Program-made: the position numbers and the translations under genes
Notes under the pieces: model-generated
Databases searched by the model: none
Seen by the model: the letters and a program-made list of their open reading frames with translations, nothing else
Told to the model about the DNA's origin: nothing
Assembly: GCF_001591705.1 (NCBI RefSeq)
Contig: NZ_BCVK01000003.1
Span: forward strand, 1 to 64,000
Source: Lactococcus cremoris subsp. cremoris NBRC 100676
GTDB taxonomy: Bacteria > Bacillota > Bacilli > Lactobacillales > Streptococcaceae
Direction of reading: 5' to 3'
DNA length: 64,000 nt
Shown: positions 1-59,631 of the stretch, piece after piece
Layout of the letters: each line of letters opens with the position of its first letter
Numbering within the stretch: the first letter of the stretch is position 1

Positions 1-708
1 ACGTCAACCACAAGAAGGTACAGCGCTTAATGAAGAAGCTAGGGCTTCGTGTGACGTCTTATTGGCACAAATCACGTAATAAATATAATTCATATAAAGG
101 AAAAGTAGGGACGGTAGCTAAAAATAAATTGCACAGACGCTTCAGAACTTCCATTCCTCATCAAAAAATCACAACAGATACGACAGAATTCAAATATTAT
201 GAAGATGGAATTCAGAAAAAGTGTTATCTCAATCCTTACATTGATTTATTTAATAGCGAGGTGATTAGTTATCATATCTCTAAACAACCCTCTTATCAAT
301 CAATTGATATTGCTCTAAATCAAGCCTTAGCTGTGACATCTGATTGTCCTTATCGACGTACTTTCCACTCAGATCAAGGATGGGGATACCAAATGAGAGA
401 CTATGTTTCTAAATTAAAATCTCATAGAATTTTTCAGTCTATGAGCCGTAAAGGAAACTGTCATGATAATTCAGTTATGGAGAATTTCTTTGGGCTACTT
501 AAACAAGAAATTTACTACGGACATATCTTCTCGTCTTTCGAAGAACTTGAACAGGTTATTGTAATCTGGATTAGGTACTATAATACAAAACGAATCAAAC
601 AAAAATTGAACTGGATGAGTCCAATTCAATTTCGCTTGAATTACCAAAACAATTAAAAAAATCCAAGTATTTCTACTTGGATAAAAAGTCTAACTTTTGG
701 GGTGCACA
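1..708 (+). mobile_element. Right part of an IS3-family (IS904/IS150-like) insertion sequence
   Basis: The left end lies outside the window. What is visible is most of the orfB transposase and the right terminus. The terminal inverted repeat read inward is TGTGCACCCCAAAAGTTAGA (688-708 on the minus strand), ending in the TG...CA expected of IS3 elements. Between the orfB stop and this end is a perfect 9-bp hairpin (661-669 with 674-682), probably an internal terminator. Just outside, at 714-727, lies an orphan T-rich half of a hairpin, suggesting insertion into or beside a terminator. The target duplication cannot be checked without the left end. Attribution to IS904 rather than a sister element is from memory. 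Confidence 0.85.
3..656 (+). CDS. IS3-family transposase OrfB (5' end outside window)
   Basis: Integrase-type DDE transposase that cuts and joins the IS ends, in IS3 elements normally made as an OrfAB frameshift fusion. The frame is open from base 3, so the protein starts upstream of the window and the ATG at 30 is internal. The catalytic triad is visible: Asp in TTDTTEF, Asp in HSDQGWGY, and Glu in VMENFFG with exactly 35 residues between the last two (D35E), typical of IS3. The C-terminal YYNTKR...SPIQF segment is also characteristic. No internal stop is seen, so this part looks functional. The orfA and left inverted repeat are not visible, so activity cannot be judged. Confidence 0.93.
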   Translation, partial: VNHKKVQRLMKKLGLRVTSYWHKSRNKYNSYKGKVGTVAKNKLHRRFRTSIPHQKITTDTTEFKYYEDGIQKKCYLNPYIDLFNSEVISYHISKQPSYQSIDIALNQALAVTSDCPYRRTFHSDQGWGYQMRDYVSKLKSHRIFQSMSRKGNCHDNSVMENFFGLLKQEIYYGHIFSSFEELEQVIVIWIRYYNTKRIKQKLNWMSPIQFRLNYQNN

Positions 709-2715: not shown

Positions 2716-4149
2716 TTATTTTTCTCGACTTAAATCGACTTCTTCAAGTGGAATAATTTTTGTATTATACTTCCATTTATAACCAAAATAAAGAACAATG
2801 AAAATCGGAATAGCCGCATATAAAGCTAAGCCTTCACCCCAGTGCTCACTAAAGAGCATGGCTGGGTCAAGATTAATTGCGATGGCTGCAGTCATCAAGA
2901 GCGCCACAATTGGTCCAAATGGGAACCATTTTGCTTTGTAAGGAAGATCTTCCAATTTTTTTCCTTGAGCAATATAAGCTCTTCTAAAACTAATGTGGCT
3001 GACAGAAATTCCAAGCCAAGCAAGAAATCCTGTCAGTGAAGACAAATCAACCAAGAAAAGATAGATTTGCGTTCCAAATATTCCCGTTAAGAAAGCAATG
3101 AAACAAATGATTGTCGTTGCTAGAAGCGCATAAAAAGGAATTCCATTTTTAGCCGTGCGGCCAAAGAATTTTGGTGCTCCCTTTTCTTGACCTAAAGAAT
3201 AAAGAATCCGAGTTGAAGCGTACATCACTGAATTTGCTGACGAAATGACAGAGGTCAGAATGACCGCATTCATCACTGAGGCTGCTACAGCGAATCCAAT
3301 ATTTTTAAAGACTATGGTAAATGGACTCATGACAGCTGTTGAGCTTGGGTTCAACAAGCGAGGGTCTTTGAAATTAATAATAGCTGCTATGACAATAATT
3401 GAAAAGATGTAAAAGAGTAAGATTCGCCAGAAAATAGAATTCATTGCTTTAGGAATCGTTTTCCCTGGGTCTTCAGATTCTCCTGCTGTAATTCCTAACA
3501 TTTCAGTTCCTTGGAAAGAGAAGCCTGCAATGAGTAAAACACCAACAAAACCTGAAATTCCACCAACAAAGCCATGATTTCCTGCTGTCAAATTGGCAAC
3601 AACATCAACATTTCCTTGTCCCAAGACTTCAAAAATTGTTAGTAGTCCAATGGCTAAGAAGAGAATAATCGTAATCACTTTAATCGTTGATAGCCAATAC
3701 TCAGTTTCTCCAAAAGCACCAACTGCCATAACATTAATAATAAAAATTAGAACTGTCGCAATTCCTGAAAAAATCCAGGAAGGAAGGTGTGGGAACCAAA
3801 ACTGAGTAATCAATCCAGCCGTCGTTAAATCCACGGCAATCGTAATGGCTCCATTTAGCCAATAATTCCAACCTAGTGCAAATCCAAAGGCAGGGTCAAC
3901 ATAACGTCCACCATAGTCAGAAAATGAACCAGAGGTAGGCAGATAAGTCGCCATCTCTCCCAGTGAAGTCATTACAAAATAAACCATGATTCCAATAAAA
4001 CAATAAGCAAGGACTGCTCCCCAAGGACCCGCTTGACTAATTGTTGCTCCTGAGGTTAAAAACAAACCTGTTCCAATGGTTCCCCCTAAAGCAATCATAG
4101 TAATGTGGCGCTGTTTAAGGTTGCGCTTGACCTGATTTTGATTTTCCAT
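2716..4149 (-). CDS. hisP: APC-superfamily amino-acid permease, probable histidine permease HisP (LysQ)
   Basis: Secondary transporter that imports a basic or aromatic amino acid, driven by the proton gradient. About 12 hydrophobic segments in 477 residues; the first contains GGTIGTGLFL, the APC substrate-binding loop, and GESEDPGKTIPKAM in the middle matches the AAT/LysP subgroup. In L. lactis the paralogue first called LysQ was later shown to carry histidine. The choice of histidine here rests mainly on the upstream leader ORF, which carries four His codons and a terminator. LysP (lysine) is the alternative if the leader is ignored. The gene is monocistronic: its own promoter, attenuator and terminator flank it. 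No strong SD is seen before the ATG (GAAAG at modest distance). Confidence 0.85.
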   Translation of the reverse strand: MENQNQVKRNLKQRHITMIALGGTIGTGLFLTSGATISQAGPWGAVLAYCFIGIMVYFVMTSLGEMATYLPTSGSFSDYGGRYVDPAFGFALGWNYWLNGAITIAVDLTTAGLITQFWFPHLPSWIFSGIATVLIFIINVMAVGAFGETEYWLSTIKVITIILFLAIGLLTIFEVLGQGNVDVVANLTAGNHGFVGGISGFVGVLLIAGFSFQGTEMLGITAGESEDPGKTIPKAMNSIFWRILLFYIFSIIVIAAIINFKDPRLLNPSSTAVMSPFTIVFKNIGFAVAASVMNAVILTSVISSANSVMYASTRILYSLGQEKGAPKFFGRTAKNGIPFYALLATTIICFIAFLTGIFGTQIYLFLVDLSSLTGFLAWLGISVSHISFRRAYIAQGKKLEDLPYKAKWFPFGPIVALLMTAAIAINLDPAMLFSEHWGEGLALYAAIPIFIVLYFGYKWKYNTKIIPLEEVDLSREK

Positions 4150-4199
4150 AATCTTTACTTTCTAATCTCTTGTTTTTTTTACAAACCAGAGCACGAGCA

Positions 4200-4232
4200 A
4201 ATAAAAAGACCAGTTGTCTTTACAACCGGTCT
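4200..4232 (-). terminator. Attenuator terminator in hisP leader
   Basis: Stem AGACCGGTTGT / ACAACTGGTCT (one G-U pair, AAAG loop) followed on the minus strand by TTTTTATTT. It lies between the leader ORF and the permease, so read-through must be needed for permease expression. A competing 5-bp pairing CCGGT/ACCGG joins 4241-4245 to the terminator's 5' arm and could act as anti-terminator. Confidence 0.85.
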
Positions 4233-4304
4233 CTTGAGAATCACCGGCATAGATACTTGAGCGTACTCTAAAGCTGTATCTATACCTACTGTATGACACA
4301 ACTC

Positions 4305-4346
4305 TTATCTATGCAAATGATGATGGCGCAATGAGAAGTTATTCAT
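4305..4346 (-). CDS. His-rich leader peptide MNNFSLRHHHLHR (attenuation control)
   Basis: A 13-codon ORF with a good ribosome-binding site (GAAAGGAG, 9 nt before ATG) placed about 25 nt after the predicted transcription start. Four of the 13 codons are His (CAT CAT CAT TTG CAT) directly before the stop, the classic layout of an amino-acid-sensing leader peptide. Its 3' end (GCATAGATA) can pair with TATCTATGC at 4247-4255, which can alternatively pair with 4276-4286; the SD region (4350-4358) can pair with 4236-4244 just before the terminator. These mutually exclusive pairings support ribosome-mediated attenuation, but the exact mechanism is not resolved. Too short for an ordinary gene search. 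Confidence 0.8.
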   Translation of the reverse strand: MNNFSLRHHHLHR

Positions 4347-4376
4347 TTCGTGATTCTCCTTTCGTGATTTTTCTAT

Positions 4377-4405
4377 ATTCTATACCTTTTTTTTTGAAAT
4401 TGCAA
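4377..4405 (-). promoter_or_regulatory. Promoter of hisP leader transcript
   Basis: TTGCAA, 17-nt spacer, TAGAAT on the minus strand. The start of transcription would fall near 4370, so the leader SD follows within about 10 nt. The direct repeat AATCACGAAA occurs on both sides of the leader SD. Confidence 0.7.
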
Positions 4406-59044: not shown

Positions 59045-59321
59045 ACAAAAAGAGCCCATTTCATAAAAAGAAACGAGCTATATCGTGGTACCATTCTTGA
59101 TTTAAGCACTTTGTAGCTCACTGAAAATTTTCAGATAAACTTTACAAAAGCAAACTTTTAAGTTCAATAACGAGAACCATGCCGTCAAAAGCTTGGTAAA
59201 ACCTCACTTTTGCTACGCTTATCAAGCCATTTTCATTGCTTCATTCAGGCTTGCTCTCACCGCTACAAGCTCTCTGTACTGACTTTCACAATTACTTACT
59301 CGACCGCTTTTATTTTGTCCG
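59045..59321 (-). promoter_or_regulatory. T-box riboswitch upstream of plpA (probably methionine)
   Basis: On the minus strand AAGAATGGTACCACG (59084-59098) is the T-box element that pairs with the tRNA acceptor end, followed by a terminator GCTCGTTTC / GAAATGGGCTC with U-run (59046-59079). Upstream lie GAAAGTCAGTACAGAGAGC and GGTGAGAGC, typical of Stem I. Two ATG triplets in the Stem I 3' side (near 59237 and 59250) could be the Met specifier; I could not decide. Uncharged tRNA-Met would favour read-through into plpA. Confidence 0.85.
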
Positions 59322-59356: not shown

Positions 59357-59495
59357 ATTTTTTGAATTATTGATTTTTTATGTTGCCTTAAAAAATTTTT
59401 AAGTTTAATTTATAAAATAGAATTCTGATCTCCCATCAATGCTTTTCAACATAAATTATGCTAAACTTAAACTTGTAAAAATAAATATTTGCACA

Positions 59496-59631
59496 ATGGG
59501 TCTATTGACAAGTCTGTCAGTAGCGAGAAATACCATCTGACCTGATCTGGGTAATGCCAGCGTAGGAATGTGTTAAGACAATCGTCTAATTTCTAACCCT
59601 CCTTTTGTGCGCATCAAAAAGGAGTTTTTTT
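59496..59631 (+). promoter_or_regulatory. TPP riboswitch (thi box) and terminator controlling thiT
   Basis: Conserved CCTGATCTGGGTAATGCC followed by AGCGTAGGAA identifies the TPP aptamer (59496-59575). The expression platform is a stem CTCCTTTT (59599-59606) / AAAAGGAG (59617-59624) with a T-run 59625-59631 reaching the ATG at 59632. The SD (AGGAG) is thus in the terminator stem, so the same hairpin can stop transcription and hide the SD. Confidence 0.93.

Follow-up and report, generated by a model that had tools for sequence, protein, structure and literature searches.

A His-codon leader ahead of a predicted histidine permease in Lactococcus cremoris, a probable ribosome-mediated attenuator built on the chassis of the trpB motif

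Introduction

The enterobacterial his attenuator comprises a leader peptide with a run of His codons and alternative hairpins, B:C with D:E on the one hand and C:D with E:F on the other. Leaders of this type (RF00514, His_leader) were not found in Firmicutes by PMC9413887, in which other His-leader attenuators are described from the B. cereus group, Peptostreptococcaceae and Erysipelotrichales; further ones are known from hisS*/hisZ in bacilli (PMC2965389). A second described element is the trpB motif (SRC-39-1, Rfam RF04312). In the sections that Narunsky et al. (2024, PMC11109978) devote to this motif, it ranks as a strong candidate for a riboswitch, and over 900 members are counted from Firmicutes and Fusobacteria; its antiterminator is placed in the right shoulder of P1, and a riboswitch is favoured, a classic attenuator not being excluded. 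Our literature search found no mention of the trpB motif in other papers. For S. suis trpX, an upstream T-box has been reported experimentally (PMC9382623).

Here we analyse a leader on the minus strand of a 64,000-nucleotide stretch of the Lactococcus cremoris subsp. cremoris NBRC 100676 genome (hereafter the window), lying ahead of an APC-family permease gene. Judged from its sequence, this leader is very probably a ribosome-mediated attenuator of transcription, which governs a histidine permease in response to charged tRNA-His, and a recoded member of a family in which one RNA chassis carries different codon runs.

Materials and methods

Orthologues of the permease were searched for in 18 Lactococcus genomes, and a first covariance model was built from nine orthologous leaders. 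RF04312 was searched over 399 Bacilli genomes, and the matches were then read for leader ORFs. A refined covariance model was used for an independent search of 395 Lactobacillales genomes. Of the leaders that were read, 82 were classified by their codons (24 His, 39 Trp, 14 F/Y/W and 5 F/Y); two loci with a single Trp (L200 and L202, MNTQAKFMKI/NNRWQGQ) failed the automatic ORF rule and stand outside the 82. Leader codons are numbered backwards from the stop.

Duplexes were assessed by a swap test, in which native pairs were compared with partners taken from other groups. The influence of the ribosome was modelled by equilibrium folding of transcripts that extended as far as the terminator loop and carried a ribosome footprint of 27 nt, counting the R3:T5 pairs.

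Results

The regulated gene occupies positions 2716 to 4149 (ATG at 4149), and all parts of its leader lie on the same minus strand. A promoter-like site spans 4405-4377, with TTGCAA at 4405-4400, a 17-nt spacer and TAGAAT at 4382-4377 (9/12 match). The preliminary description called it a good promoter; the site is there, but promoter-scan counts do not exceed those of shuffled sequences, so that it is weak when taken alone. By eye, TTGCAA followed by TATAAT or TATACT stands at the equivalent position in the other eight orthologous leaders. The Shine-Dalgarno (SD) sequence AAAGGAG (4362-4356), of which AAGGAG is invariant in the nine orthologues, precedes the 13-codon leader ORF MNNFSLRHHHLHR (4346-4305; ATG 4346-4344, TAA 4307-4305). 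As described earlier, four His codons stand at its end, namely CAT CAT CAT at 4325-4317 (codons -6, -5 and -4) and a fourth at 4313-4311 (codon -2).

The end of the ORF forms segment R1 (GCATAGATA, 4314-4306), a near-copy of R2 that is able to pair with R3. Right after the stop lies R1b (AGAGTTGTGTCATAC, 4305-4291), the partner of R2 in hairpin 1b:2, which would permit antitermination. R2 (GGTATAGATACAGCTTT, 4286-4270) can pair with either R1b or R3, and between R2 and R3 sits a small hairpin, GAG-TACG-CTC, with a UNCG-type loop (4268-4259). R3 (GTATCTATGCC, 4256-4246) can engage R2, forming the P1 of the Rfam trpB motif, or R1, or, through its 3' end, the 5' arm of the terminator (T5). This last pairing brings together the antiterminator 5' strand CCGGT (4247-4243) and ACCGG (4230-4226) within the terminator; ACCGG is kept in 8 of 9 orthologues, whereas the 3' terminator arm drifts. 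R4 (GTGATTCTC, 4244-4236) is complementary to the SD region at 4358-4350 (GAGAATCAC). The intrinsic terminator (4235-4204) has 14 pairs between T5 (4235-4222) and T3 (4217-4204), followed by a U-rich tail. The mutually exclusive pairings of the preliminary description were correct; they join 4246-4256 with either 4306-4314 or 4276-4286, and 4236-4244 with 4350-4358. Overlooked at that time were a hairpin after the stop (4291-4305 with 4270-4286), an antiterminator pairing (4243-4247 with 4226-4230) and the wider family. The leader folds at -58.9 kcal/mol compared with -35.1 ± 3.6 for shuffled sequences (z = -6.6, 0 of 200 shuffles), and SD:R4 is the outer helix of its minimum-energy fold.

The search of the 18 Lactococcus genomes yielded 17 permease orthologues. 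In nine genomes the leader lies directly upstream of the permease, with HHHxHR invariant and the stems conserved. The N-terminus of the peptide varies by whole codons, with 7, 8 or 9 before HHH, always in frame. The check proposed with the preliminary description, whether the stems outlast the His codons, thus found both conserved together. The nine-leader covariance model detected the element in 18 of 18 Lactococcus genomes, before hisP, before an operon of ABC transporter, racemase-like and hisP genes or, in one species, before hisC-hisZ; this second copy in genome G005 reads MILLSTLSHHHHLHR. In most species without a leader right before the permease, the element heads an operon beginning about 3 kb upstream with hisP as its last gene. 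Gene by gene in L096, the order is ABC permease, ATPase, binding protein, epimerase and hisP. The epimerase (L096:2983-3810) scores 64.6 and 52.9 bits on histidine racemase models, both below cut-off, and 22.6 bits on DapF; it is possibly a racemase of histidine that is linked to the uptake of this amino acid. The same racemase-like epimerase probably occurs in the operons of L098-L100, L102 and L103. Among all 24 His leaders, His is found at codons -6, -5, -4 and -2 in 22, 23, 22 and 23 cases, respectively, and the synonymous CAC replaces CAT in 8 of 97 codons with His retained.

Within the same genome, the paralogue closest to the permease (66% identity) lies behind a lysine riboswitch (L019, 97.8 bits). 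Since this paralogue has the lysine riboswitch and the permease itself the His leader, the latter is better read as a predicted histidine permease than as LysP; the reassignment from lysine to histidine made in the preliminary description is supported, also by the histidine-racemase-like gene in the operon of an orthologue. HisP of L. lactis, which carries the annotation of a lysine permease, and FywP have reportedly been assayed as histidine and aromatic transporters. In the window's genome hisG (L222, G000:C16:4905-5450) is interrupted by a single in-frame TGA, and a search for hisC gave nothing at 1e-30, so histidine biosynthesis looks degraded, which would make the control of uptake important. 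G007, a near relative, has its hisG divided between two frames. A leader ending in HRHHR stands ahead of a YjeM-family APC transporter in L104 (G014:C43), which its leader would mark as histidine-related.

The same chassis recurs with other codons at an equal distance from the stop. A second site in the window's genome has the leader MKTQQSTVFYFWRR before another APC permease, and the nine-leader model also matched trpXYZ in Lactococcus (WQSWRS leaders) and loci in streptococci (WQSWHR leaders). FYFW or YYYW leaders precede the second APC permease, WQxW leaders trpXYZ and trpB, YYFSYF leaders aroE-aroF and TrpX-like ABC genes, and His-codon leaders hisP/ABC, hisC-hisZ and hisZ-hisG, the last in L198, from another family, with an HHHH leader. 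In L186, L188, L189 and L205 the leaders read YYFSYFR or FYFSYFR, and the genes behind them are aroE-aroF or TrpX-like ABC genes. Trp leaders have W at -6 and -3 in 38 of 39 cases, and F/Y/W leaders have F/Y at -6 to -4 together with W at -3 in 13 of 14. Curated gene names fit the codons: trpB and TrpX go with W, hisC, hisZ and hisG with H, and aroE and DAHP synthase with F/Y. Since paralogous copies keep the stems but carry codons that match the regulated gene, the codons are probably what is sensed; this match argues strongly for codon sensing, and ribosome-mediated His attenuation as first proposed gains support from it.

All 11 binding proteins tested from W-leader loci pass the cut-off of 390 bits on the TrpX equivalog model, with 432-476 bits, and all three from F/Y-leader loci fall below it, at 269-384 bits. 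These three, the TrpX-like ABC binding proteins of L189, L201 and L205 (352, 384 and 269 bits), are probably Phe/Tyr transporters and likely to be annotated as tryptophan ones. Two further loci were observed. In L078 (G016:C4) two APC permease genes adjoin, each with its own leader (FYFWRR and YYYYRHG), and in L086 (G013:C33) a WQNWRS leader precedes an OppA-like peptide-binding protein, which suggests peptide uptake under tryptophan control.

For most Trp members, the Rfam model RF04312 matches the 3' half at more than its gathering score. The window's leader aligns with it over its full length (model positions 1-107, window positions 4286-4197), with the P1 hairpin and terminator in register, at 42.5 bits, which is below the gathering score of 59; the aromatic copy in the same genome reaches 49.0 bits. 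Outside the window, every RF04312 match that scores 46 bits or more comes with a short ORF containing Trp, aromatic or His codons. The weaker ones are mostly 3' ends of genes without a leader ORF, L186, L188, L189 and L205 with their F/Y leaders being exceptions. Chance matches of this kind, at the 3' end of a gene or without leader ORF, were dropped (L134, L135, L185, L187, L190, L203, L204, L206-L215, L322 and L323). The independent search found the family in 113 of 395 Lactobacillales genomes, covering 27 of the 81 sampled genera. Among the further order-wide loci, 72 of 75 have a closed leader with Trp codons and the stop at a nearly fixed offset; L294, L295 and L320 have WQ codons with no closed ORF at the usual place, run on in frame, and were not counted. 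A phylum-wide search of 249 genomes gave only two chance matches beyond Lactobacillales. Trp is thus the widespread form; judged by distribution and not by a tree, the His and mixed aromatic forms appear to have been derived within Lactococcus and the genus that is its sister. Not every trpX leader belongs to the family, since that of S. suis has the reported T-box (PMC9382623).

In 63 aligned cores, 95.6% of the cells are paired for R2:R3, 87.0% for R1b:R2 and 91.3% for R1:R3, compared with at most 58% when the partners are slid. Six pairs of hairpin 1b:2 show changes on both sides. The swap test comprised 80 members in 24 genome groups, which share ancestry and are not phylogenetically independent; native duplexes were more stable than swapped ones for R2:R3 (-16.0 versus -13.7 kcal/mol, 24 of 24 groups, p = 1e-7), R1b:R2 (-16.9 versus -13.7 kcal/mol, 22 of 24, p = 6e-7) and R3:T5 (-11.0 versus -7.8 kcal/mol, 22 of 24, p = 2.5e-5). 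The R3:T5 sequences differ by clade, being CCGGU/ACCGG here, CUAUGCGC/GCGCGUAG in streptococci and of the AUCUAUG/CAUAGA types in more distant families. The SD:R4 pairing, clear in lactococci and positive in streptococci, passed in 11 of 24 groups (p = 0.66) and was rejected as a universal feature; the helix proposed in the preliminary description exists, but it is lineage-specific and not the core switch.

With the A site placed on codon -6, the folding model gave 3.86 R3:T5 pairs across the 24 groups, compared with 1.13 for a ribosome at the stop and 1.27 without a ribosome. The corresponding values were 5.5, 12.0 and 7.7 for P1 and 7.6, 0.1 and 5.2 for 1b:2. Antitermination was favoured at codon -6 over the stop in 19 of 24 groups (p = 9e-5), a result that holds for three footprints, and the difference was lost when the stretch from stop to terminator was shuffled (-0.25, p = 0.44). 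The window alone switches weakly, with 1.8 R3:T5 pairs in the stalled state, 0.0 at the stop and 0.1 without a ribosome, and for the garvieae-like group (L011) the model gives antitermination in no state, P1 never opening. Kinetic folding must be invoked because the equilibrium model is weak for the window and gives nothing for the garvieae-like group; in that group the order of synthesis, with R1b:R2 formed before R3 exists, would do the work.

Elsewhere in the window, a T-box that scores 82 bits, under the gathering score, at 59066-59313 on the minus strand lies near a TPP riboswitch at 59486-59585 on the plus strand (60.6 bits), and the left end holds a transposase-like ORF (30-656, plus strand), by eye an IS3-type integrase.

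Discussion

Directly legible at this locus and in its relatives are an ORF, codon conservation and swapping, a fixed distance from codons to stop, co-varying competing helices, a terminator and cognate genes. The ORF is predicted to be translated, given its SD, its in-frame changes of length and the synonymous changes in its codon run; across the His, Trp, F/Y and F/Y/W classes the codon cluster fits what is regulated; and a choice between terminator and antiterminator made by the ribosome emerges from the model for the family, although it is weak in the window's own case and absent in that of the garvieae-like group. We infer from this that ribosomes stall on the leader, that stalling leads to read-through and that the system responds to histidine. 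When charged tRNA-His is scarce, the ribosome would stall at codons -6 to -4, masking R1 and leaving R1b free to pair with R2, so that R3 would be barred from R2; the CCGGU end of R3 would then pair with ACCGG of the terminator, and the permease would be transcribed. With enough charged tRNA-His, the ribosome would reach the stop and cover R1 and R1b, and R2:R3 (P1) would tie up the antiterminator strand and let the terminator form. Without translation, SD:R4, R1:R3 and 1b:2 would fold and transcription would terminate, the untranslated RNA taking the terminating form because of the extra pairings R1:R3 and SD:R4.

Other readings of the leader were weighed against this attenuator. The first published interpretation of the trpB motif, a metabolite-binding riboswitch to which the short ORF would be incidental, draws on the high sequence conservation of P1 and on the listing of the motif as a strong candidate in PMC11109978. 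We regard it as highly improbable: the His, Trp and aromatic copies of lactococci are nearly alike in R2 and R3 yet precede genes for different amino acids, what varies with the gene is the codon run, and the leader stop keeps its nearly fixed offset in 72 of the 75 order-wide matches. A further idea is that the His-rich peptide is itself the sensor, for example by binding metal, for a metal-linked operon. HHHxH could bind metal, and the racemase-like neighbour present in some species resembles CntK of metallophore pathways; however, WQxW or FYFW peptides on the same chassis govern Trp and aromatic genes, and the His versions govern hisC-hisZ and hisZ-hisG, which leaves this explanation scarcely any credit.

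Control of the permease by a His T-box is practically ruled out by the sequence. Such T-boxes are found in the his operon region of five other Lactococcus genomes and no other type of His regulator is as common in Lactobacillales (PMC9413887), but RF00230 gave no match in the window between 4100 and 4500, and the ten T-box matches of this genome lie elsewhere. The remaining alternative is an attenuator in which SD:R4 would be the main switch, limiting re-initiation on the leader, with R3:T5 in a minor role. The position of SD:R4 as outer helix speaks for it, as does its strength in lactococcal His leaders (-12.8 versus -6.0 when swapped). It is nonetheless unlikely, as native SD:R4 pairs prevail in 11 of the 24 groups whereas R3:T5 pairs do so in 22.

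The attenuator acting through R3:T5 thus remains our preferred reading, and it is likely that the trpB motif in general makes up the 3' half of ribosome-mediated attenuators that are present in the 27 genera and recoded for Trp, Phe/Tyr, mixed or His codons, the His form serving uptake in Lactococcus and once biosynthesis. This would give a mechanism to a riboswitch candidate for which none was available, and ligand screens on the trpB motif are predicted to fail. Leader-peptide attenuators would be widespread in an order where T-boxes are regarded as the main means of amino-acid control. The family would provide natural cases in which the specificity of a regulator was re-programmed by codon change while the RNA was kept, a design directly copyable in Lactococcus. 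The codon run also predicts substrates, Phe/Tyr for the TrpX-like ABC transporters with F/Y leaders and histidine for the permease in the window.

With the trpB motif as described, the leader shares the R2:R3 hairpin (P1) followed by a terminator, but the passages of PMC11109978 on the motif describe neither a leader ORF nor hairpin 1b:2, and histidine is nowhere mentioned in the text of the paper. The T-box leaders found ahead of his operons in Lactobacillales also monitor how far the tRNA for histidine is charged; they bind the tRNA directly and need no translation, and the window's leader has no T-box homology. The attenuators of PMC9413887 and PMC2965389 are also Firmicute leaders with three to five consecutive His codons and proposed ribosome-mediated attenuation, but they are described for his operons and hisS paralogues and not for hisP-type permeases or Lactobacillales; L198, with its HHHH leader before hisZ-hisG, may overlap with them. 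The enterobacterial his attenuator (RF00514) has the His-run leader peptide and the same logic of alternative hairpins. Its R1 equivalent pairs with the next segment, whereas here R1 pairs with R3 and the SD with R4, and its covariance model had no match in the window or relatives. The element is, by analogy, one that works like the enterobacterial his attenuator without being a member by sequence; the enterobacterial-type logic of the preliminary description holds, and what was taken for an isolated copy appears instead as a recoded member of a Lactobacillales family.
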